From IMG/VR virus record IMGVR_UViG_3300008266_000772, positions 1 to 48,791 of that record: a stretch of 48,791 nt of DNA. The stretch is one strand, 5' to 3'. The notes under the pieces were generated by a model. It was given only the letters and a program-made list of their open reading frames with translations, was not told where the DNA came from and made no database searches. This DNA is from a virus. Below, piece after piece: positions 1 to 46,870 of this stretch. Position 1 is the stretch's first letter. The number at the start of each line of letters is the position of its first letter. The position numbers and the translations under genes were made by a program.

Positions 1-123
1 TTCATTTTCAGCATCGTAGATAAAGCCGAAGCTTTGCGGTAGATCGCCGACAAAGTATGGTGTGTATAGCACGCCGTTAACTTTGATTAGATTGTTCTTT
101 AAGAACTTAATTGATTTTTTCAT
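1..123 (-). CDS. Small protein, partial (continues beyond the window)
   Basis: The reading frame begins with ATG at 123 (MKKSIKFLKNN...) and is still open at base 1, so only the first 41 residues are visible. The start is basic, followed by a short mixed segment. It lies 21 bases downstream of the leftward motif at 145-182 and is probably the first gene of that transcript. I do not recognise the family. Confidence 0.6.
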   Translation of the reverse strand, partial: MKKSIKFLKNNLIKVNGVLYTPYFVGDLPQSFGFIYDAENE

Positions 124-144
124 AGTTATATTATTATTTGTTAC

Positions 145-182
145 ATTAATATTATCAATTCGCTATCGTGTTCAGATTGTAA
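145..182 (-). promoter_or_regulatory. 38-bp leftward promoter-like motif, copy 1
   Basis: Read on the minus strand it runs TTACAA, then AACACGA, then TTGATAATAT, at the same spacing as seven other copies. It lies between the stop of the 184-411 gene and the ATG at 123, leaving a leader of about 21 bases. Position and repetition favour a promoter. The recognising polymerase or factor is unknown. Confidence 0.75.
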
Positions 183-183
183 A

Positions 184-411
184 TTAATCTTTGTATTTAA
201 CATCCTTCATAAACGTTTCACACGCTATAGCACTCAATCGTTTGCACTCTGCATAGTGTGCTGCATTATCTACTTTATCTTTACGGAACGCAACGATTGT
301 ATCGTAGTCGGTAGAGATTAAAGCTTCGTCATCTATAGTACACTTGTAGTACATTACGTCAGGGAAATATATATTATTCCACTCAACTATTGGGTAATCA
401 TCGTATTTCAT
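184..411 (-). CDS. Small acidic protein of unknown function
   Basis: A 75-residue protein, MKYDDYPIVEWNN..., rich in Asp, Tyr and Lys, with no membrane segment. It ends in the operon of small leftward genes that begins at 1247. The stop is immediately followed by the next promoter-like motif. It is likely an early accessory protein; the family is not recognised. Confidence 0.65.
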   Translation of the reverse strand: MKYDDYPIVEWNNIYFPDVMYYKCTIDDEALISTDYDTIVAFRKDKVDNAAHYAECKRLSAIACETFMKDVKYKD

Positions 412-413
412 AA

Positions 414-584
414 CTATTCTTCAATTAAGTTAAATTCTACACCTAAATAATCTCCAGAGTCTAATACCTCTTCTCCGTCCATATACCTGTCTCGAACTAT
501 TTTTATAGCATATTCTTCACAGCTAGCGGTCACCATAATCTCTCTAGTTAGGGTTTCTACAATTTCTATTTTATACTCTTTCAT
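414..584 (-). CDS. DpnD/PcfM-like small protein
   Basis: ATG at 584 gives a 56-residue protein that starts MKEYKIEIVETLTREI and continues with a helix rich in Glu and Ala, then VLDSGDYLGVEF. The pattern of an amphipathic first strand, an EEYAIKIV helix and a terminal hydrophobic strand resembles the DpnD/PcfM family, whose biochemical role is unclear. Two bases separate it from the 184-411 gene, so they are co-transcribed. The family call is from pattern memory. Confidence 0.6.
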   Translation of the reverse strand: MKEYKIEIVETLTREIMVTASCEEYAIKIVRDRYMDGEEVLDSGDYLGVEFNLIEE

Positions 585-591
585 AATTTAC

Positions 592-690
592 TTAATTATA
601 TTTATCATTAAACCACTTAATTAACACTGCTCCTATTGCAAAACCTGCATATAAGGTGAATATCACAAATAATGTATCACCACTACTCAT
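592..690 (-). CDS. Single-pass small membrane protein
   Basis: A 32-residue protein (MSSGDTLFVIFTLYAGFAIG...) with one hydrophobic segment over about residues 7-24 and a charged tail ending NDKYN. Its ATG at 690 overlaps the stop of the upstream zinc-ribbon gene, a typical translational coupling. Function unknown; it could be an early host-takeover or superinfection peptide. Confidence 0.6.
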   Translation of the reverse strand: MSSGDTLFVIFTLYAGFAIGAVLIKWFNDKYN

Positions 691-793
691 CTTCGTCTTC
701 ATCTATAAATTCACAATGCTCTAAACAATCCGGACACAAACCATACTCTGTCATAAATGTGGATGCACCACAACAATCACTTACCATACTCAT
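683..793 (-). CDS. Mini zinc-ribbon protein
   Basis: A 36-residue protein with a CCGA motif near residue 8 and CPDC near residue 20, followed by LEHCEF and an acidic tail. Two cysteine pairs at this spacing are typical of small treble-clef or zinc-ribbon phage proteins found in early operons of Bacteroidota phages. It overlaps the next gene by 8 bases. Metal binding is inferred from the cysteines; no partner is known. Confidence 0.65.
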   Translation of the reverse strand: MSMVSDCCGASTFMTEYGLCPDCLEHCEFIDEDEDE

Positions 794-795
794 AA

Positions 796-969
796 TTAAA
801 TGTATTTATATATATTATTTTCTATATCCGCCACTACAGCATCTTCGTCGTACCATAGGTATGTTTCCTCAACAACTACATCAAATGTATCGTTCTTACC
901 CGTATCATCTCTGCGAGTATATTCTATATACCCACAACCCATATCTGTCTCAAATTCGATCTTTCGCAT
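796..969 (-). CDS. Small acidic protein of unknown function
   Basis: ATG at 969 gives 57 residues starting MRKIEFETDMGCGYIEYTRR, acidic overall (EETYLWYDEDAVVADIE), with no membrane segment. It sits 2 bases upstream of the zinc-ribbon gene in the same leftward operon. Family not recognised. Confidence 0.6.
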   Translation of the reverse strand: MRKIEFETDMGCGYIEYTRRDDTGKNDTFDVVVEETYLWYDEDAVVADIENNIYKYI

Positions 970-972
970 AAT

Positions 973-1130
973 TTACTTTAAATATATTATCATTTCATAT
1001 TTATCAGGTACACTTTCAAAGTATAATCCACTCGCATTTAGTATAGATTCTCACTATGACTTCGATCAAATTGGTAATCATTTCTAATAATACCAATACA
1101 CTCACACACTATTCTATCTATACTTTTCAT
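973..1130 (-). pseudogene. Small gene broken by an apparent one-base frameshift
   Basis: ATG at 1130 opens a 30-residue frame (MKSIDRIVCECIGIIRND...SENLY) that stops at 1038. A second frame continues without its own start as LNASGLYFESVPDKYEMII and ends at 973, three bases from the next gene. The whole span is 158 bases, so one extra base near 1040 would give a single 52-residue protein. Gene spacing fits the joined form better. The cause could be a sequencing deletion or a real mutation. Confidence 0.5.
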
Positions 1131-1148
1131 AATTTATTTTGTTATTAG

Positions 1149-1247
1149 TTATCTATTTAGCGCGTATGAAGCGTTTCTAGCACCTTCTAAGAGCTCTTTT
1201 TTCACTTTTAATATTACCACACTAAAGGCATCGTTAAATCTTCTCAT
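1149..1247 (-). CDS. Small basic protein
   Basis: A 32-residue protein (MRRFNDAFSVVILKVKKELL...) that looks like one amphipathic helix. It is the first gene after the motif at 1277-1314, with a leader of about 29 bases, and heads the leftward operon running to 184. Function unknown. Confidence 0.55.
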   Translation of the reverse strand: MRRFNDAFSVVILKVKKELLEGARNASYALNR

Positions 1248-1276
1248 AATTAGTTATATTTGTTTGTTATACTTAC

Positions 1277-1314
1277 ATTTATATTATCAATTCGCTATCG
1301 TATTTTGTCTGTAA
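1277..1314 (-). promoter_or_regulatory. 38-bp leftward promoter-like motif, copy 2
   Basis: On the minus strand: TTACAG, AATACGA, then TTGATAATAT, with the same 38-base frame as the others. Its central part (ACGATAGCGAATTGATAATA) is identical to copy 1. It would drive the operon 1247 to 184. Confidence 0.75.
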
Positions 1315-1381
1315 AAGGTTGAACTTTATTTGTCTAAAAATAGTAGTCAAATGGGTAACCCTCTATCTCGCTGTGTATCAG

Positions 1382-1528
1382 TTATTTAGGTTTGATACTT
1401 GTGCTTAATTTTCTCAAAACATTATATAATTCGGGTGATAATATATCAATTCCGCCAACTTGATCGATTTTATCGAAGATTAGGTTTTTTAATTGAGAAA
1501 CTTCGCTGTTGTTTAGTTGTAATTTCAT
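1382..1528 (-). CDS. Small helical protein of unknown function
   Basis: A 48-residue protein, MKLQLNNSEVSQLKNLIFDK..., mostly amphipathic helix with a basic tail (STSIKPK). It starts 19 bases after the motif at 1548-1585. The start MKLQ is shared with the neighbouring gene at 1809-1952, but the rest differs. Family not recognised. Confidence 0.6.
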   Translation of the reverse strand: MKLQLNNSEVSQLKNLIFDKIDQVGGIDILSPELYNVLRKLSTSIKPK

Positions 1529-1547
1529 ATTGTTTGTTTTTATATTC

Positions 1548-1585
1548 AATTATATTATCATTTTTAGTTCGTATTTTGTCTGTAA
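1548..1585 (-). promoter_or_regulatory. 38-bp leftward promoter-like motif, copy 3
   Basis: Minus-strand elements TTACAG, AATACGA and ATGATAATAT at the fixed spacing, 19 bases before the ATG at 1528. Confidence 0.75.
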
Positions 1586-1606
1586 GAGTTGATCAAGCGA
1601 ACGCGG

Positions 1607-1624
1607 TGTATAGCATGTATAGCA
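1607..1624. repeat. Tandem pair of the 9-mer TGTATAGCA
   Basis: TGTATAGCA occurs twice back to back here and again at 63-71, 1712-1720, 2011-2019 and 2463-2471. Three copies (1712, 2011, 2463) lie 1-4 bases from the outer edge of a 38-bp motif, which is the upstream side of that promoter. The placement suggests an upstream activator or operator site, or part of a duplicated promoter cassette. Confidence 0.6.
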
Positions 1625-1672
1625 AAAGTAGGACGGAGTCTACTCTTCCGACTATATTTCAAAGCCAGGCCC

Positions 1673-1710
1673 AGTATTATTATCAAAACACCTTCGTATT
1701 CGTACTGTAA
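1673..1710 (-). promoter_or_regulatory. 38-bp leftward promoter-like motif, copy 4 (no gene directly after it)
   Basis: Minus-strand elements TTACAG, AATACGA and TTGATAATAA at the fixed spacing. Between it and the next motif (1586-1672) I find no credible ORF, so it is either a tandem promoter for the 1382-1528 gene or makes a short RNA. Confidence 0.7.
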
Positions 1711-1754
1711 ATGTATAGCATTTTAGACAGGGACCGAAGGGACCGTTAAAAAGA

Positions 1755-1800
1755 GTGACATTAGCGTATTAAGGTAATAAATAACAGGCTAACGTCGCAC
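1755..1800. repeat. 46-bp hairpin repeat, copy A
   Basis: It starts GTGACATTAGC and ends GCTAACGTCGCAC. The two arms are near inverted repeats, and the loop is AT-rich. Read leftwards the stem is followed by TCTTTTT, so this copy may also terminate the 1809-1952 transcript. A second copy of the same length is at 2975-3020. Confidence 0.65.
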
Positions 1801-1808
1801 TATTTGAA

Positions 1809-1952
1809 CTATCTTTCCATCTCAAGGATGAACATTATGTAATTACCGATCTTTAATTTATCAGAGTATGATAACATTATGTATTCGGTTGTACGTGTGT
1901 ACTTGTAGCCGTGTTTAGAGGCTAGTTTCTGAGCTAGTTTTTGTAGTTTCAT
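1809..1952 (-). CDS. Small basic protein of unknown function
   Basis: A 47-residue protein, MKLQKLAQKLASKHGYKYTR..., with a basic N-terminal helix and a hydrophobic C-terminal half (KIGNYIMFILEMER). It begins 18 bases after the motif at 1971-2008 and is followed by hairpin copy A, so it appears to be a single-gene transcript. Confidence 0.6.
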   Translation of the reverse strand: MKLQKLAQKLASKHGYKYTRTTEYIMLSYSDKLKIGNYIMFILEMER

Positions 1953-1970
1953 AGTTATATATTTAATTTC

Positions 1971-2008
1971 ATTAATATTATCATATTTGGATCGTATTCA
2001 GTCTGTAG
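1971..2008 (-). promoter_or_regulatory. 38-bp leftward promoter-like motif, copy 5
   Basis: Minus-strand elements CTACAG, AATACGA and ATGATAATAT, with the 9-mer TGTATAGCA two bases beyond its outer edge. It drives the 1809-1952 gene. Confidence 0.75.
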
Positions 2009-2060
2009 AGTGTATAGCAACGCTTCAGCAGATTACAGCGTGTTGAGGTTAAAACAACGA

Positions 2061-2299
2061 CTATTCAGCCGCTGTCTCAAGTTGTTCAACTGTAGCCAAG
2101 TGTCTTACGTTACTCGGCATATCAGTGGATTGTGACCAGTACTCACGTTTGATCCAACATGGCATGATAGATAACTTCGGTAACATCACTTTCAACACTT
2201 CATCGTCGGTGATAACTTAGATATCGCTTGAGCGATCAATTCTTTGTTAGTTAATACTACTTCTACAACTTCAACTGTTTTTTCTACTTTACTTTTCAT
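2061..2299 (-). pseudogene. Small gene broken by an apparent one-base frameshift
   Basis: ATG at 2299 opens MKSKVEKTVEVVEVVLTNKE... and stops at 2192 after 35 residues. From about 2213 another frame reads ITDDEVLKVMLPKLSIMPCW and on to ETAAE, stopping at 2061. The span is 239 bases, so one added base in CTAAGTTATCACC would give one 79-residue protein. The joined protein has a helical acidic start and a Trp-containing C-terminal half; family unknown. Sequencing error or true lesion cannot be told apart here. Confidence 0.5.
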
Positions 2300-2334
2300 A
2301 ATTATTATATTTATATTGTTATTTACTTACTTAC

Positions 2335-2372
2335 ATTATTATTATCAATTTCACTTCGTATTATTATTGTAA
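2335..2372 (-). promoter_or_regulatory. 38-bp leftward promoter-like motif, copy 6
   Basis: Minus-strand elements TTACAA, AATACGA and TTGATAATAA. It precedes the ATG at 2299 of the frameshifted gene by 35 bases. Confidence 0.75.
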
Positions 2373-2420
2373 GAACTTTTATTTTAATTTATTTATTTTG
2401 TTATTTACTTTGTTACTTAC

Positions 2421-2458
2421 ATATATATTATCAAATAGTCTTCGTGTTCGTCTTGTAA
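2421..2458 (-). promoter_or_regulatory. 38-bp leftward promoter-like motif, copy 7
   Basis: Minus-strand elements TTACAA, AACACGA and TTGATAATAT, with TGTATAGCA four bases beyond its outer edge. Only 48 bases separate it from copy 6 and no ORF lies between, so the two act in tandem or one makes a short RNA. Confidence 0.75.
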
Positions 2459-2467
2459 GAAGTGTAT

Positions 2468-2611
2468 AGCAACGCGAGCGTAGCGAGCATGCTCCGCCCT
2501 GTCAATTCCGTCACACAGAGTAGTAGTTGTTACAATTATATTATCAAAACCACGTCGTGTCGGTACTGTAAGTGCTATACGCGTATGCTATACGCTACGC
2601 TTCGCGTTGCT
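2468..2611. repeat. Inverted repeat flanking motif copy 8
   Basis: AGCAACGCGAGCGTAGCG at 2468-2485 is, with one extra base, the reverse complement of 2593-2611. Both arms are much more GC-rich than the surroundings. They bracket the motif at 2534-2571 and could form a cruciform or serve as regulator sites. Confidence 0.5.
2534..2571 (-). promoter_or_regulatory. 38-bp leftward promoter-like motif, copy 8 (outermost)
   Basis: Minus-strand elements TTACAG, GACACGA and TTGATAATAT. It is the most upstream copy, next to the palindrome ATACGCGTAT, and would start the leftward block. Confidence 0.75.
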
Positions 2612-2974
2612 CCGCTTCGCTTGCATAACATCACACATCCCATCGCTAACACATGCTGCCTGTATCGGATCCAAACGACACATGCCTAACGAATGCATCC
2701 CACAAACTATAGATGTTGCCAGCAGCTGCCTAAACCCACATGCATACACCGAAACCGAAAAGGTAAATCCTTTTTTCACATTCCCAAATCGAACCGGGGG
2801 CTGGGCTTTTTCAAAGTCATTTCCGTTGCGGCATCGCGGTTTCAAAACGTATATGGAACCCGTTGCTTCTCTTTTTGTAATAACATTATTTTCGCGTTGC
2901 TTCTATTTTTTTTAAAATGTACGTTATTATGTACAAAATGGCTAATAATGCACATAATATGATACATTAATAAT

Positions 2975-3020
2975 GTGACATTAGCTGATTAAGTATAAAA
3001 ATAAGGGGCTAACGTCGCAC
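2975..3020. repeat. 46-bp hairpin repeat, copy B
   Basis: It has the same start (GTGACATTAGC) and end (GCTAACGTCGCAC) as copy A at 1755-1800, and the same total length, with most differences in the AT-rich loop. It lies just upstream of the first rightward gene and of the promoter candidate at 3042-3059. An operator or origin-associated element is as likely as a terminator. Confidence 0.65.
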
Positions 3021-3041
3021 TGTAAAAGTTGTGTACTATGC

Positions 3042-3059
3042 GTAATAGTATAAGTTATA
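3042..3059 (+). promoter_or_regulatory. Candidate rightward (late) promoter element
   Basis: GTAATAGTATAAGTTATA lies 17 bases before the first rightward ATG. A near copy, GTAATATATAAGTTATA, precedes groEL at 12619, and weaker versions occur at 16036 and 26319, all in intergenic gaps. The match is short and the region AT-rich, so this is tentative. Confidence 0.4.
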
Positions 3060-16035: not shown

Positions 16036-16056
16036 GTAATAATAATATTATATAAA
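16036..16056 (+). promoter_or_regulatory. Weak candidate promoter
   Basis: GTAATAATAATATTATATAA lies in the 44-base gap before the secreted-protein gene at 16074. It resembles the elements at 3042 and 12619 in its GTAATA start, but AT-richness makes this weak. Confidence 0.3.
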
Positions 16057-39800: not shown

Positions 39801-42800
39801 AATATAGACGACAATACACTAGCTGTATATAAACCAAATGCTATTAAAAATGGGCATGTAAGCTCTGGCTCCCACGAAGTATTACATACGGTGTTGTCTA
39901 AGGCCTTTAAGGGAAATCAAGAAGAAGCCAATAAGAACGGTATAAAATTGCTAGAATATTTAAAAACAGCACAACCAGACCTCTATGCTGCAGTTGAAAC
40001 AAGAATGAAAGCTTACGACCCGGAATATGCTGCTTATGGAGAAGAGGTATTTAATGCTCTTTCAGATTCTTTTAGTGATGGCAAAGTACCAAATGATAAT
40101 GTATTTATGCAAATATCTAAAATTGTTAATAAAATAACAAAGGGAGCATTTGGGGCATCATCTACATTTGATATTAGTAACATAGATACAGATTCAGGTA
40201 AAGCTTTATTCGATACAATAAAAGCGTATAATCAAAAAGCCGGTGCTAAGAAAACTAAAACTGGTAAAAACATAAGATTTATTTATTCTGATACAGAGGA
40301 CAAAATCGCGGAAGGTACTACTGGTTTTAAAGCGTCTAAAACTAAAGTAGCCGAAGTTCAAAAGAAAATAGATGATTTAGAAGATCAGTTAGACAATGAT
40401 GAAATTGACTATGACGCTTACGAAAATAAGCTTAAAATATACGAAGCTGAATTAGCAAAAGCCAAAACAATGCCTGAGGAAGCTCCTAAGCCAGATGTTA
40501 AAAAAGTTGAAGTTTCTGATGAAGACGCAGATAAAGAAATAATAAAGAATGAAAGATCGTCATTGTCTTCAGATAAGGTGCAAAAAATATATGATGATAA
40601 AGGAGTAAATGGAGCGCAAGAAATTATAGACTTATTTAGACCTATCACTAAAAAATTAGTGAATAGAAGAATGGATGCCCCTGGATTTGATAGAGAGTTA
40701 TTAACAGATGAGATAGAGACTGGAACAGGCGGTATTTTAGACTTAATAACAAAATACAAACCAGAAGGAGGCGTGCCATTAGCTGCTTTCATTAATAAGT
40801 ATTTACCGGTTAGAGCTATTGCGGCTTCAAGAAGAGTGCTAGATAAAGACTTTAGTAAAGACGTAACAGAAGAGAAAGGTTTAATGGCTGAAGAGACTGT
40901 CTCTGAGGTAAAAGAAAAACCAAAGTATAAGAATGCATTAGAATCAAATGTTTTTGAGCCAGAAGTGTTAAAAACGCTTTCTGACAAGGTTGTAACAATA
41001 ACTAGAACATTGAAAAATAGAATCGATGCTCCTATAACCCTAAATCGTACTGTGACCCCTTTGATAAGCGAGATTAGAGACGAAGTAGGCAGGTTATTGG
41101 ACATTGATGTTAAAACCGCTATGGGTGGTAAAAAAGATGATCAGCTTAAAAAATGGTTATTAAAAAATAAGCGTTATGTATTGGAAAACATGACTACCAC
41201 TTGGTTAATGGGTAAAGATGGAGTCGGAGGAATGCCGCAGGCAATACAAAAACAAGTTGACGGCAAATGGGTTAGCTATCCTGATTGGGTTGGCAAGAAA
41301 ATTGATAGAGAAAAAACCACAACAGATCAAGCTGGCAGAACATCAGGGGCTGAATTAGTTAGACGTTTACCTAATGTAAACAATAATGTTCCTAATGACG
41401 TTTATTTAGCGCAGGTGTTAGAACCTAGCGGTAATCCAATTAGAGGCAGAAAAGAATCATTGGCTAAAGCAATTGCTGAAGAATCAGCATTTGATATAAT
41501 TAATAATGACCTTGAAAATGAAGGACCTATATTTGAAGCTTTAGCGACTAATCAAGAAAGACTAGGATACGAAGTTACTAACGCATTTGCGGTTGAAATT
41601 GCTAAACAGTCAGAAAGAGGTAATGTTAAATTTTCTAAAACAAATGTTAATGCTGTAGATAAAATTGGAACTGAATTTTACAATTTTTATAAAGATTTAA
41701 ATACAAATAATAAAGCATTAGTATTTAATTATTTAGATAATAGAGAATTTAAAGGTATTGATGACAATATAAAAAATGAATTAGATGATATACTAAATAG
41801 ATGGGAAACAGCGTATATAAATAATTCTGATAAAATATTAAATAAAATTAATGTTGAAAGAAGAAAAAAATTTAAAGAAGAATATCCAAAAGTAGAAAGT
41901 TTTAATAAATATTTTGAAAAGGAAAAAGAAGATATTAAGGTTTCAAAAACAGCATTATTAGGGCTATCAAAAACAGGATTAAATTTTATAGAAAGTAATA
42001 AAGATACAATAAATGAAATAAATTCTTATATTTTTGAAAATTTAAAATATCAAGTAGAAAATACTAAAAATGAAAATGAAAAAATAGAATTTATAAATAG
42101 TTTTCTAAGAACTTATAGAGCAGTTTTTACAGGAGGAGATTATGGGAAGTTTTTTGGGGGAAGTAATACTAATCTTTTAAAAAAATTAAATGACATCAAA
42201 GGATTTGATAAACTAGGCTATAGTTTAAAAACTATTGGTACTAATAACATAATTATTGATAAAAACGGCATTAACCCTACGTATGTTGAAAATCAGTCAA
42301 CTAAAGCCGATGATATAAAAAATATAATAGAAAAAGGTATTGATAATTTGAATACAGATAGGATAAAACAAAGTAATCTTGCTTTAAAGGATATATTGAA
42401 TTTTGCGGATTTTATTAAAAATTCTAGTATGTCCCCAAAAGCAAAAGCTATGGCTATTATTTTTATGAAGTCTAGCACATACTCTCCTCTGCGAACATTA
42501 GGCAAAGTTGATTCTATAATATTAGATAAAAATACAAAAAACAGGGAGGCGTATACATGGGAGCATGTCATTCCCGCAGACGAGATGGTTAGACATATTA
42601 TGTCCTATGCCTTAGACCTACCGTTTGCTAATAAGCCTATAACAACTAAAGAGAATTTAAAATTATTATTAGAGGATAGTAAAATATCCCTTTTGCCTAA
42701 CAACATTAATAATATATTAAATACCATACTTAAAAGTCAAATGCCATCATCCTGGGAAATTGGAGATAACGCATATAATGCTAGGTATTTTAACCAAAAA

Positions 42801-42851
42801 ACATTAGATATATTAAAGGCAAACGGTATTGTTTTGAATCTAAATCTGTAA
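36876..42851 (+). CDS. Giant multi-domain virion protein (front part of a split polyprotein)
   Basis: 1991 residues. Order: residues 1-420 charged, with a YTEEDLINAAGGKDKL start and long coils; 420-700 hydrophobic Gly/Ala stretches that could insert into membranes; 700-990 coils; HEVLH at 1000-1004 with a YGEEVFNAL Glu at about 1056-1057, a zinc-metallopeptidase-like site; about 1249-1320 a sigma-region-2-like helical segment (ILDLITKYKPEGGVPLAAFI); a conserved block ending in VKFSK at 1586-1588; then 400 residues ending in an EH-type motif (YTWEHVIPA, 1894-1902). It is probably injected with DNA, like T7 gp16. The stop is 38 bases before the next frame's first start codon. Confidence 0.75.
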   Translation: MLEYELNGKIYTEEDLINAAGGKDKLSAYIKSKGFKVASKKAKQTTKFYEKPSKDLYKEVFGFENPAKDNFSEINKTKKKKAQPAAPKKWTGLITPEELAGEESTVAETLGKKLSLYGLTPSEATFGLNRITIRGDKKQPLYSAINRWGVETAVDLPEVAVGAGLSRKELEASAKQLNEYIRIHGNKNYTQKVKKQNPSLAAEYNNAISPKSRTFDEKLNLRNEELVNEFKDKETIAKNRLGIKGGYEPRADINLTKTDFDTPEKYNDYKTWKKTGQLPIPSEEKLEKFIGEYNDNYRRTKSSEFMSDAPQEQRVMLNALAAEKEEEAIKTTEYLKTKGQELDKRSKEFSISTSKFEKTPPTPGELEAYKKEYFALQNETAEYNKKALTTKKDFNTIKAVYETALKDYSRLNQTGSLLKQTALGLLGGAVDLTTSLAAGLDTASPIPYSVKKSLLKETLLDPIYSEQKAATKELESYQQDLSVKDIKSMKDLGRWGAGVLTQMPSSMAMAVTGEAALPLFFLSGYGSKQYEIASSQEAALSRLQYNADQLEKGLVAEEDMAEIQKQVASDKKTLQISEGAKLTSQLLAGASEVLLEKYGTLGIIKETNNILRAIPAQEIKRQLKTIGKEMGKSAGVEAWTEGLTQVSNNFGDIYLLGQDKNYFDGVPDAMAGGAFMGPGFAAMGGAQTIGQNITKAVVSEITTKEELKARERKLEEIKKLTGLTDITGLTKRELDKLTLQPPVRKAVEELVGQIEGEDLRILDRLGKDLSMETAREVGDLNQKLRKITKEWTEASATTGIDDAQLKSLRDYYQKQYNETFSAREALLKDTQLAGKSKKDNALKRISFEATKGSQIYDIRLTRKTYLEKLANFDKLSTEEKQRYNDLALNELKTQGTESELSDAQINSRARSLYAGEEISKQLDRDIEAANAFSEETGLNVKVEVINNEKELLEKYGNIISEADLKEIREGRTNAFNIDDNTLAVYKPNAIKNGHVSSGSHEVLHTVLSKAFKGNQEEANKNGIKLLEYLKTAQPDLYAAVETRMKAYDPEYAAYGEEVFNALSDSFSDGKVPNDNVFMQISKIVNKITKGAFGASSTFDISNIDTDSGKALFDTIKAYNQKAGAKKTKTGKNIRFIYSDTEDKIAEGTTGFKASKTKVAEVQKKIDDLEDQLDNDEIDYDAYENKLKIYEAELAKAKTMPEEAPKPDVKKVEVSDEDADKEIIKNERSSLSSDKVQKIYDDKGVNGAQEIIDLFRPITKKLVNRRMDAPGFDRELLTDEIETGTGGILDLITKYKPEGGVPLAAFINKYLPVRAIAASRRVLDKDFSKDVTEEKGLMAEETVSEVKEKPKYKNALESNVFEPEVLKTLSDKVVTITRTLKNRIDAPITLNRTVTPLISEIRDEVGRLLDIDVKTAMGGKKDDQLKKWLLKNKRYVLENMTTTWLMGKDGVGGMPQAIQKQVDGKWVSYPDWVGKKIDREKTTTDQAGRTSGAELVRRLPNVNNNVPNDVYLAQVLEPSGNPIRGRKESLAKAIAEESAFDIINNDLENEGPIFEALATNQERLGYEVTNAFAVEIAKQSERGNVKFSKTNVNAVDKIGTEFYNFYKDLNTNNKALVFNYLDNREFKGIDDNIKNELDDILNRWETAYINNSDKILNKINVERRKKFKEEYPKVESFNKYFEKEKEDIKVSKTALLGLSKTGLNFIESNKDTINEINSYIFENLKYQVENTKNENEKIEFINSFLRTYRAVFTGGDYGKFFGGSNTNLLKKLNDIKGFDKLGYSLKTIGTNNIIIDKNGINPTYVENQSTKADDIKNIIEKGIDNLNTDRIKQSNLALKDILNFADFIKNSSMSPKAKAMAIIFMKSSTYSPLRTLGKVDSIILDKNTKNREAYTWEHVIPADEMVRHIMSYALDLPFANKPITTKENLKLLLEDSKISLLPNNINNILNTILKSQMPSSWEIGDNAYNARYFNQKTLDILKANGIVLNLNL
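41640..42844 (+). mobile_element. 1205-bp inserted segment splitting the giant virion gene (candidate)
   Basis: Both ends carry TCTAAA (41634-41639 and 42839-42844). Removing exactly one repeat plus the segment would join VKFSK to SVKGISVFDFDDT and fuse the two large ORFs into one frame of about 2650 residues; 1205 is not a multiple of 3, so the insert breaks the frame. Its first 780 bases are markedly AT-richer than the flanks (hand counts 10/60 and 8/60 GC against 23/60). It encodes about 400 residues in frame with the front ORF, with an EH-type motif. No intron core or transposase is seen. A domain gained by recombination is the alternative. Confidence 0.45.
42530..42851 (+). other. EH-type nuclease-like module at the end of the front ORF
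   Basis: Codons read AYTWEHVIPADEMVRHIMSY, followed by helices and NNINNILNTILKSQMPSSWE and YNARYFNQ. A Glu-His pair followed by Pro-Ala recalls EH/HNH-type toxin nucleases and modules in phage polyvalent proteins. It could cleave host nucleic acid after injection. The remaining catalytic residues are not clear, so this is a low-certainty call. Confidence 0.35.
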
Positions 42852-42889
42852 AAGGTATTTCTGTTTTTGACTTTGACGACACGGTTGGT

Positions 42890-45800
42890 TTGACTAAAAG
42901 CAATGTGCTATACACAAAGCCTGATGAAACAGTTATATTCCACGGTGGAAGTATCAAAGGTTTAAAAGATATAAAAGGTCCATTATATGCAGCTACTGAC
43001 CCAAAGCAAGCTAAAGCTTATGCTAAAGAGCACAAGGGAGCAGTTAAATCCTTTGTTATAAAAACAAATGAGATTGTAGATGAAGATGTTGTTATAGAGG
43101 AAATCAATGCTTTAGGGTTAAAACCTAAAGACAGCAACTACAATGTTGACGAATTAAATCTATACGAATTAATAGATCCAAATTTTGAAACATCGCTTAG
43201 TGAAAAAGATCTTAATACTTTATTTAATTCGCTTAAGAAAAAAGGTATTAAAGCAGTTGAGTTCTTGGATATGAACCTGGAGAGTCTAAAAAATGATATT
43301 TATAACATTGTTATATTAGACAAGGGAATTGTACAAGAGCAAAGTAAACTTACCGGCGAAGAATTCGCAAAAGAGGGAACTAAACTGTTAGAGGAAGGGG
43401 TTACATTTGACTTCTCTGAATTCAGTAAAGTTGTAGATGGTAAGCCAGGACCTATGGTTGAGAAGATGAAAAAAATGATTGACAAGTTTGGTCCAGAAAA
43501 TTTCTTTATCCTTACAGCTCGACCTCAAGAAGCAGCAGGCCCAATTTATGAATTTTTAGATTCTATAGGTATTAATATACCATTAGAAAATATAACGGGA
43601 TTAGGCAACAGCGCTGCACAAGCAAAAGCGGACTGGATGGTTGGTAAAGCTGCTGAAGGATATAATGATTTTTACTTTGCAGATGATGCGCCTCAAAATG
43701 TTAAAGCAGTTCAAGACGCGCTAGATGTTCTTGACGTTAAATCAAAAATACAACAAGCTAAGATTAAATTTAGCAAATCAATGTCGGAGCGTTTCAACGA
43801 AATCATTGAAGAGAATAAAGGTGTTGAAAGCTATAAGGTATATTCTGATATTACCGCTAGAAGACGAGGTTTAAAGAAAAACAGGTTTGATTTTTATGTT
43901 CCGCCATCTGCCGCAGACTTTGAATTATTACTTTATAACTTTATGGGTAAAGGGGCATTAGGTGAATCACAGAAAGAATTCTTTGAAGACGCTTTAATAA
44001 AACCTTATATAAATGGAGTTAACTTAATGGATGCTGTTAGACAATCTATAAAAAGAGAATACAAGGCATTGTTAAAGTCGTTCCCTGAGATTAAAAATGA
44101 GCTTGAGAAATTAACGCCAAATAAAGATTTTACTTATGATCAAGCGATGCGTGTTGCTATTTGGGATCAATTTAATGTTGAAATTCCAGGCTTGTCTCAA
44201 AGAGATAGAATTTACTTGTCAGATCTTATTAATAATGACCCAGATCTTGCTGCTTTTAAAGATGGCTTAATTGTAATGGGTAGACAAAAAGACGGATGGT
44301 TACCTCCAGGTACTTATTGGGATGCCGATACTATTATTTCTGATTTGTACAATATAACAGAAGGATCAGGTAGAAAAAAATTCTTAGGGGAATTCATTGA
44401 AAATGTAGAGGAGCTATTTGGAACATGGTCTGAGGGTAGGTTAGTTGGGCCTAATATGAATAAGATTGAAGCCGTTTACGGAACAAACGTTAGAGAAGCG
44501 TTAGAAGATTCTATATACAGAATGACTAATGGTAAGAACAGAAGCTTTGGGCAAGACAAAGAAACAACAGCATGGAACAGTTGGGTAAATGGATCTACTG
44601 GTGCAATCATGTTCTTAAACACTCGCTCAGCTGTACTACAAATGTTAGGAGCAGTTAACTTCTTGAACTGGAGAGATAATAATCCTTACAATGCTGGTAA
44701 AGCATTTCTAAACCAACCACAATATTGGAAAGACTTTGCTCGTATATGGAACTCTGATAAATTAAAAGAAAGACGCGGAGGCTTAAGAGAAGATGTGGCG
44801 TCTGCTGAGATTGCTAATGCCGCTGCTGGTAGTAAAAATAAAGTAGTGGCAGTAACATCGTACTTATTGAAGATAGGATATACACCTACACAATTAGCGG
44901 ATAGTTTTGCTATTGCTTCAGGAGGGGCACCGTTCTACAGAAACAGGATTAACTCTTATTTGAAAGAAGGATTAACAGAGCAGGAAGCAGAGGATAAAGC
45001 ATGGCAAGATTTCTCGAAAATATCAGATGAGACACAACAATCAGGTGATCCAAAGGATATATCAAAACAACAATCAAGCGCTGCTGGTAGATTACTATTG
45101 GTTTTCCAGAACTTTACAATGCAGCAATCCCGCATCGTTAAGAAGGCTGCTCTAGATCTTAAGAATGGCAGAGGCGATGCTAAAACAAACATAGCTAAGA
45201 TAGCGTATTATTTAGCGGTACAGAATATAATGTTCTCGACGTTGCAGCAAGGCATATTTGCCACTTTCTTTGATGATGATGAGGAAGAAGATAAGAAGGC
45301 CAAAACAAAACAAGATGCTGCTTATGATGTTGCTAATGGTGTACTTGATAGTATACTTAGAGGCACAGGATTTCTTGGAGGCGTTGTTTCAACTTTAAAG
45401 AATACAGTTGTTAAATACCTTGGAGAACGAGCTAAAAAACAAAAAGCTGAATATGCTAAAGTTGTACTAGAAGTTGCTAATATGTCACCGCCTATTGGAT
45501 CTAAATTAAGAAAAACATATTCTGCATTACAGCAAACAAAATATGACAAAGACTTAATAGAAGCAAGAGGTTGGGGCGTTATGCAAGATGGTAGAGTTCA
45601 TTTAGGACCAATGTATTCTGTAACCGGTAAATTAGTTGAGGTAGGAACTAACTTCCCTATGGATAGGTTAGTTAACAAGGTAGAGAATGTTTCTCAAGCA
45701 TTTAATTCTGAAAACACCACAATGCAAAGAATTGCTACTGGATTAGGTTACTCTCCGTGGACTGTTGGTATTGAAGGAACCAAAGGAGATATACTTATAA

Positions 45801-46039
45801 AAGAAACCGCTAAAGAAAAGCGTAAGAAAGAGGGTATTGAGAAAGGGAAGGTTACTAGAAAAGAAAATGCTGAGAGACTAAAAGACAGTCTTAAAAGTTT
45901 ACCCGTAGAAGAAAGAATAAAATACAAGCGTAAAGTTGCTCTTGAAAAAAGGGAAAAAAGAATAGAAAAAGCAAAAGAAAAAAGAGAAGAAAGACGCAAG
46001 AAAATGGAAATGATAAATAAATTAAACGCAAACAAATAG
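42890..46039 (+). CDS. Giant virion protein, rear part: HAD domain with nested ADP-ribosyltransferase-like domain
   Basis: 1049 residues from a TTG start. The frame is open from 42794 but has no ATG there. Just before the TTG lies SVFDFDDTVG (nucleophile motif at 42869-42883) of a HAD hydrolase; downstream LTARP and YFADDAPQNVKAV complete it. Between them, about 42926-43345, is FHGGS, LYAATDPKQAKAYAKEHKGA and IYNIVILDKGIV, which resemble an ART fold of the H-Y type. After another KFSKS linker (43766-43780) comes a conserved block (FDFYVPPSAADFELLLYNFM; AIMFLNTRSAVLQMLGAVNF) typical of giant internal proteins, and a very basic coiled-coil end. With the TTG start the HAD nucleophile is lost. 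Confidence 0.75.
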   Translation: MTKSNVLYTKPDETVIFHGGSIKGLKDIKGPLYAATDPKQAKAYAKEHKGAVKSFVIKTNEIVDEDVVIEEINALGLKPKDSNYNVDELNLYELIDPNFETSLSEKDLNTLFNSLKKKGIKAVEFLDMNLESLKNDIYNIVILDKGIVQEQSKLTGEEFAKEGTKLLEEGVTFDFSEFSKVVDGKPGPMVEKMKKMIDKFGPENFFILTARPQEAAGPIYEFLDSIGINIPLENITGLGNSAAQAKADWMVGKAAEGYNDFYFADDAPQNVKAVQDALDVLDVKSKIQQAKIKFSKSMSERFNEIIEENKGVESYKVYSDITARRRGLKKNRFDFYVPPSAADFELLLYNFMGKGALGESQKEFFEDALIKPYINGVNLMDAVRQSIKREYKALLKSFPEIKNELEKLTPNKDFTYDQAMRVAIWDQFNVEIPGLSQRDRIYLSDLINNDPDLAAFKDGLIVMGRQKDGWLPPGTYWDADTIISDLYNITEGSGRKKFLGEFIENVEELFGTWSEGRLVGPNMNKIEAVYGTNVREALEDSIYRMTNGKNRSFGQDKETTAWNSWVNGSTGAIMFLNTRSAVLQMLGAVNFLNWRDNNPYNAGKAFLNQPQYWKDFARIWNSDKLKERRGGLREDVASAEIANAAAGSKNKVVAVTSYLLKIGYTPTQLADSFAIASGGAPFYRNRINSYLKEGLTEQEAEDKAWQDFSKISDETQQSGDPKDISKQQSSAAGRLLLVFQNFTMQQSRIVKKAALDLKNGRGDAKTNIAKIAYYLAVQNIMFSTLQQGIFATFFDDDEEEDKKAKTKQDAAYDVANGVLDSILRGTGFLGGVVSTLKNTVVKYLGERAKKQKAEYAKVVLEVANMSPPIGSKLRKTYSALQQTKYDKDLIEARGWGVMQDGRVHLGPMYSVTGKLVEVGTNFPMDRLVNKVENVSQAFNSENTTMQRIATGLGYSPWTVGIEGTKGDILIKETAKEKRKKEGIEKGKVTRKENAERLKDSLKSLPVEERIKYKRKVALEKREKRIEKAKEKREERRKKMEMINKLNANK

Positions 46040-46068
46040 AATAGGCACCATACCTAAAGTTGCGTAAA

Positions 46069-46102
46069 AAAGAAAGGGGACCACATAAGTGAATCCCCTT
46101 CT
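46069..46102. terminator. Bidirectional terminator between convergent blocks
   Basis: AAGAAAGGGGA and TCCCCTTCTT form a stem with one bulged A and a 13-base loop. T-runs or A-runs follow on both sides (cttttatt to the right; ttttttacg when read left), so it can stop the late rightward and the leftward transcripts. It lies between stops at 46039 and 46107. Confidence 0.8.
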
Positions 46103-46106
46103 TTTA

Positions 46107-46310
46107 TTATTCTTTAGTTTCCTCTTCTGGAGGTTTAACTCTTTCGGTTACAACTTTCATAGCTTCCTCATATCCCGGCATTTCTTTCATAACTTGGTAT
46201 GTTCCTACTGCCATTGTTTTTGTATTTTCAATCTCACCTAATACAAACTGAGTGATCCTTGATAGAGCGTCTATCTTATTCTGCATTTCTATTAATTTGC
46301 TTTCTTTCAT
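46107..46310 (-). CDS. Small helical protein, unknown
   Basis: A 67-residue protein, MKESKLIEMQNKIDALSRIT..., largely one helix with a charged, Pro/Glu-rich end. Start overlaps the end of the oxygenase-like gene (ATGA), so it is translated with it. Function unknown. Confidence 0.6.
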   Translation of the reverse strand: MKESKLIEMQNKIDALSRITQFVLGEIENTKTMAVGTYQVMKEMPGYEEAMKVVTERVKPPEEETKE

Positions 46311-46870
46311 TTTTTTATTTTATAAAACATTACGAATACAACTCTACTTTCTGTAAACTCATTTGGATACTTACTATGGAAGTAATTACACGGGTAAGAT
46401 ATTAACCTGTTCTTTTTATGCCCTATAACAGATTTTAAATACCATAGATCAAGATCGTTAGCGTCTTCATTTAGTAATCTATTTTGTTCTTCAATACTTA
46501 CATTCTCAAATCTATCACCGTGTTTCTTGTGCTCCCAAAAAGCCGTACCATTCAACCCCTCTTGTTTAGTTTCTGATAAATATAAAACACAAGCTCTATC
46601 TGGTTGTTGGCCTTCTATAATTGAATCATTGTGTATACGCCAATCATTATCTTGGCCTTCTTTTGCTTCGCGAATGAAATATAGTATAGGCTCAATTCTA
46701 TTGCTCTCTAAATCTTCAATTTCAAATTTTATAATATCAGCAATAGGCTTTGGAACATTCTTAACCCAGAAGGACTTTCCAGGGGTTTTTACTTCCTGGA
46801 ATTCATCCTTATTGGTATTTAATAATTCAATTAAATTATCATCTAAAAAATCATCTTTTATATAAATCAT
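46307..46870 (-). CDS. 2OG-Fe(II) oxygenase-like protein
   Basis: A 187-residue protein with the double-stranded beta-helix pattern: WRIHNDSIIEG supplies the HxD metal pair (His and Asp), ACVLYLSETKQEGLNGTAFW is the core, then LISYPCNYFHSKYPNEFTES supplies the distal His and the Arg (ESR) that binds 2-oxoglutarate. Such enzymes in phages hydroxylate proteins or nucleic acids; the substrate is unknown. It precedes the small 46107 gene and follows the ribonucleotide reductase in the same leftward unit. Confidence 0.75.
   Translation of the reverse strand: MIYIKDDFLDDNLIELLNTNKDEFQEVKTPGKSFWVKNVPKPIADIIKFEIEDLESNRIEPILYFIREAKEGQDNDWRIHNDSIIEGQQPDRACVLYLSETKQEGLNGTAFWEHKKHGDRFENVSIEEQNRLLNEDANDLDLWYLKSVIGHKKNRLISYPCNYFHSKYPNEFTESRVVFVMFYKIKK

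Follow-up and report, generated by a model that had tools for sequence, protein, structure and literature searches.

A rigid four-box motif, most likely an early promoter, in a lineage of uncultured crAss-related phages and a phage sigma factor as its candidate reader

The left end of a viral DNA record of 48,791 nucleotides (IMG/VR record IMGVR_UViG_3300008266_000772; the whole stretch is called the window in the following) carries eight leftward copies of a 38-base pattern. Are these repeats promoters of a phage-specific class and, if so, which transcription machinery reads them? From sequence analysis, we consider them most likely to be the leftward promoters of an early gene module that belong to a lineage-specific four-box family.

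Leftward sites and early genes of the window

The original prediction listed eight 38-mers of identical spacing on the minus strand, and all of them match YTACAR-N4-RAYACGA-N7-WTGATAATAW with 0 mismatches at the places it named. The ninth best match within the 48,791 bases has 5 mismatches, and a window scan with a slightly looser pattern yields 8 reverse and 0 forward hits (reversed control: 0). The claimed 20-base gap between TTACAR and GATAAT was reproduced as well, while the motif is longer than had been stated, i.e., at most sites it reaches TGTAA at positions -1 to +4 of the predicted transcript. All eight sites are located within the first 2.6 kb ahead of small leftward ORFs, and next to their cluster the structural module starts divergently in the rightward direction.

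In the following, sites are given from -38 to +8 on the minus strand. Sites 1 to 3 form a tandem trio ahead of the first early gene, namely the pattern match of site 1 (2526..2571, predicted +1 at 2533, matrix score 41.0), the tandem site 2 (2413..2458, +1 at 2420, score 48.2) and site 3 (2327..2372, +1 at 2334, score 46.0). Further downstream follow site 4 (1963..2008, +1 at 1970, score 46.3), site 6 (1540..1585, +1 at 1547, score 49.6), site 7 (1269..1314, +1 at 1276, score 49.8) and site 8 (137..182, +1 at 144, score 53.6). Five sites had been placed 18-35 nt upstream of an ATG, and this holds for sites 3, 4, 6, 7 and 8, for which the distance from the inferred +1 to the ATG is 35 (ATG 2299), 18 (1952), 19 (1528), 29 (1247) and 21 nt (123), respectively. 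Two of the remaining three 38-mers, at 2421 and 2534, are the tandem copies upstream (sites 2 and 1). The third, at 1673, is site 5 (1665..1710, predicted +1 at 1672), a weaker variant without TGTAA (score 26.0) that heads a noncoding element.

The early gene behind site 3 (2061..2299, minus strand) is conserved in 17 of 22 relatives. In the window it is split by a frameshift near position 2200, which is either a sequencing error or real. Behind site 6, a 48-aa early ORF (1382..1528, minus strand) has a 96% identical homologue in the related record G030, where it is likewise preceded by a motif site. A run of small early ORFs covers 1..969 of the minus strand (796-969, 683-793, 592-702, 414-584, 184-411 and the end-cut 1-123), with homologues in relatives.

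Two further repeat types are found in this part. Copies of TGCTATAC are present in both orientations within window positions 1590-2590 and in relatives, near several promoter sites; we dropped them as part of the site architecture since orientation and distance are inconsistent. An imperfect inverted repeat, GTGACATTAGC...GCTAACGTCGCAC, occurs in two copies (1757-1802 and 2970-3021, plus strand), and related hairpins recur in the early regions of relatives, some of them followed by T runs.

Motif anatomy and carriers

The matrix scan covered 27 related phage records which were picked for carrying the motif, such that presence counts are biased while strand, spacing and placement are unaffected. 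The original prediction had named equal abundance within genes and in both orientations as evidence against a promoter family. We observe 257 versus 2 sites by strand, and 8 of the 257 are located inside ORFs of more than 80 aa. Shuffled sequences gave 0 sites, and none were found in MW202828 and elemoA. When the motif halves were scanned separately, 254 pairs were found at the fixed spacing and 0 at offsets of +/-1 to 6.

The motif comprises TTACAR (-38 to -33), AYACGA (-27 to -22), GATAATA (-12 to -6) and a purine at +1, usually within TGTAA. Nearly or fully invariant are T-37 A C A-34, A-25 C G A-22 and G-12 A T A A T A-6. If the inferred +1 (G in 77%, A in 23%) is right, GATAAT would fall in the -12 to -7 place of a sigma-70 -10 box. 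The ATG of the next ORF peaks 19-22 nt past the predicted +1 purine, and in seven sites the ATG is located exactly at the predicted +1, i.e., the gene is leaderless.

The noncoding element behind site 5 (1628..1672, minus strand; GGGCCTGGC...GTCCTAC) provides an independent sign of a transcription start, as it begins exactly at the predicted +1. No gene follows this weak site; instead, a conserved stretch, GGGCCTGGCTTTGAAATATAGTCGGAAGAGTAGACTCCGTCCTAC, extends from the +1. In several other genomes the same stretch is found behind a variant site with ACGG, and in others no site is directly ahead of it. Among the fetched related loci, we found 32 distinct copies. A hairpin CC-U-GAY...RUC-GG, which was named only after viewing the sequences, covaries with 15 double-change cells compared to 3.4 in shuffles. 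Its covariation score is 0.309 versus 0.178, and the signal is lost when the partners are slid. RNAalifold reports for the same alignment a different, weak helix without covariation, and an Rfam search with the element gave no match. The element may represent a new small RNA.

The predicted promoter family is thus supported by the geometry, the distance to the ATG, the leaderless genes and a structured RNA from +1, and we regard the motif as very probably a promoter, with transcription presumably starting at the predicted +1. It is improbable that the motif is instead a protein-binding operator or a partition or replication site ahead of the early genes. Four boxes about one helical turn apart could indeed hold a regulator, and TTACA and TGTAA make distant inverted arms. 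These arms do not covary (rho 0.01), and a symmetric-arm architecture was rejected since there is no coupling between them. The strict gene orientation, the set ATG distance, the leaderless ATGs and the RNA element at +1 suit a promoter.

With regard to its carriers, the window belongs to a crAss-related podophage. In addition to crAss muzzle domains, it encodes a terminase, a portal and further virion families. The portal shares 51% identity with that of MW202828, 41% with those of Flavobacterium elemo phages and 34% with that of Cellulophaga phi38:1. The contig is incomplete, i.e., the replication part of its 58-70 kb relatives is missing. A motif scan of IMG/VR returned at least 118 stretches, and among the matches listed all 33 larger motif contigs encode the portal with 53-88% identity. 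The motif hence marks one lineage of uncultured crAss-related podophages, whose hosts are probably Bacteroidota bacteria. Cultured phages scanned with the 54-base consensus gave nothing convincing. In MW202828, a relative without the motif, a palindrome GTGTCGTTAACGACAC is found ahead of many early genes instead (44,500-49,000).

Host enzymes often read early genes of phages, so one may ask whether the motif is a host promoter for the primary or an alternative host sigma factor. We consider this very unlikely. A scan of bacterial and archaeal genomes (257 Gb) yielded 17 matching stretches, compared to about 15 expected by chance according to our own estimate, which argues against a general host promoter. 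A single cellular contig is rich in motifs (9 sites in 20 kb); it is binned as Sphingobacteriales and phage-like in appearance, and no cellular genome has a set of sites outside phage-like contigs. Bacteroidota sigma-A recognises TTTG/TAnnTTTG (PMC6847099, PMC9723704). Such a promoter has TAnnTTTG at -12 to -5 and TTG/TTTG near -33. A TAnnTTTG box is absent from the motif, as had been noted, given its nearly invariant G-12, A-8 and A-6. Host-type promoters (TTG-N17-23-TAnnTTTG) are also found in intergenic DNA at near chance level only, with 14 versus 11.6 expected for the early and 19 versus 14.4 for the late strand, where both totals include two outgroups. A few good-looking host-type promoters are present in elemoA and MW202828.

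Candidate readers of the motif

For the relative G014, we investigated ten larger proteins of the replication side, one of which (255 aa, encoded at 46010-46777) belongs to the sigma-70 family. Both regions expected for this family are present, i.e., Pfam Sigma70_r2 matches with 2e-5 (above the curated cut-off) and Sigma70_r4 with 1e-4 (just under it). The protein further matches phrog_351 (3e-21), and its best PDB match is RpoD/SigA (RpoD 2e-7). Among the matches listed, 30 of the 33 motif records other than the window carry the sigma gene. The contigs of the other three (G010, G015, G024) break off in that region, and the window lacks the gene because its contig is incomplete. No such gene was found in MW202828, elemoA and phi38:1. 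All 22 relatives that span the region encode both the sigma factor and, just upstream, a protein of 206 aa whose HTH match is weak, while neither is present in MW202828 or elemoA. That is, motif and sigma gene occur together in the lineage and are both missing from these outgroups. The sigma gene belongs to an operon that is headed by motif sites, and its position is close to the distal end of the motif-driven module. In G013 the gene directly follows a motif site.

A second element may be relevant for the role of this factor. GTAATAnTA is found upstream of the first late gene (3042..3050, plus strand) and again at 16036 and 26319 of the plus strand. In intergenic DNA of the relatives, 63 copies are located on the late and 11 on the early strand, while relatives without the sigma gene show only 3-4 copies per strand. 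It is thus a candidate for a late promoter class. When a late motif was searched for by Gibbs sampling, mostly terminators and coding sequence came up. Given a distal sigma gene and a separate late element, the sigma factor reads either the early motif with feedback or the late element while something else reads the early motif.

The original prediction proposed a dedicated factor or a phage polymerase. The former gains support from the lineage-wide sigma gene, while no polymerase was found in the larger replication-side proteins of G014 or in the giant late protein, i.e., the proteins tested include no cognate enzyme of a T7-type or virion RNA polymerase promoter. The giant protein has no Pfam match and nothing meaningful in PDB. 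Its C-terminal model is all helical (pLDDT 64), and the model of its middle part is mostly helical and of low confidence (pLDDT 65), with no significant Foldseek match in PDB. We thus rejected a virion RNA polymerase within this protein based on sequence, PDB and the two models, which cover 1849 residues beyond the N-terminal 840. In the window, the protein is split into two frames at 42851-42890 (plus strand), while in relatives it is encoded by a single ORF of 2900-3400 aa. It also contains a sigma-region-2-like stretch beside an HExxH motif (40545-40874, plus strand), whose top PDB profile match is sigma-K (E 0.12), with an hhalign E-value of 0.04 against the phage sigma factor and many weak Foldseek matches to sigma factors. 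We dropped this stretch as a general reader because only about ten of the motif genomes show it clearly.

Among the possible readers, we lean towards host core RNA polymerase that is redirected to the early motif by the phage sigma factor, possibly together with its HTH neighbour. We infer this role since region 4 could use the upstream box, since there is no enrichment of host-type promoters and since we found no other reader. The sigma-70-family factor would recruit the host core enzyme to the early promoters, and the HTH protein encoded upstream might join the complex. Being encoded downstream of motif promoters, the factor would amplify its own expression, so its first molecules would have to be delivered with the virion or to stem from leaky transcription. 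The placement of its gene also weighs against this role, given that a distal position behind motif sites is the usual spot for a factor of the next gene class. The same holds for GTAATAnTA as an alternative target and for the 20-bp gap with zero spacing variation, which is unlike ordinary sigma-70 promoters. The missing variation suggests a composite complex rather than the sigma factor alone. More tentatively, the rigid promoter of about 45 bp may be read only as a whole, either by host core together with the phage sigma factor and another DNA-binding protein of the phage or by an unrecognised virion-carried factor, such that a phage dependent on host polymerase would run its early genes without host-type promoters.

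Phage transcription cascades in which a sigma factor switches to the next gene class are usual, as in T4 and SPO1. Accordingly arranged, the early motif would be read by host polymerase plus a factor delivered with the virion, or by a virion polymerase that escaped recognition, and the sigma factor would serve as a late switch acting on GTAATAnTA. The gene's position near the module end (in G013 directly behind a site), the strand bias of GTAATAnTA and its low counts in sigma-less relatives are in line with such an order. On the other hand, no polymerase turned up among the tested proteins or within the modelled part of the giant protein, and the latter's sigma-like stretch is too restricted among motif genomes. 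We consider this order possible but doubtful.

Relation to known systems

For an uncultured environmental lineage, a transcription map thus becomes readable from sequence, in crAss-like kin that apparently do without the RNA polymerase of their relatives, and a candidate reader of the early motif can be named. If true, the lineage would show how early genes can be expressed independently of the unusual Bacteroidota promoter by a phage that has no polymerase of its own, and an orthogonal sigma/promoter pair would be on offer. The start of infection also becomes a concrete question, as the sigma gene sits behind its own candidate promoters. We found no description of the motif family in the literature searched, a set without the key publication on the virion polymerase of crAss-like phages.

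If the inferred start is right, the sites would resemble sigma-70 promoters in GATAAT at -12 to -7, the purine at +1 and TTACAR near -35. They differ by the 20-bp gap, the nearly invariant ACGA middle box and conservation up to +4, and 254 of 254 show one spacing instead of a variable 16-18 bp spacer. T4 middle promoters, read by host RNA polymerase with MotA/AsiA, combine a -10 box with an activator box at fixed distance and serve a timed gene class. This layout is shared, but the boxes differ and the present lineage has a phage sigma factor instead. CrAss-like phages that carry a virion RNA polymerase (phi14:2 gp66) have related structural proteins (muzzle domains) and a giant gene that ends the late module; unlike there, the giant protein shows no RNA polymerase signature and a dedicated sigma gene is found. 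SPO1 gp28 and T4 gp55 are phage-encoded sigma-70-family proteins of early or middle regions, as is the factor considered here, which forms a lineage of its own, has region 4 and faces a long and rigid candidate target promoter. Promoter classes specific to phages are known, and so are phage sigma factors. A four-box probable promoter that is about 45 bp long, has no spacing tolerance and replaces host-type promoters lineage-wide in uncultured phages is a new form of these.
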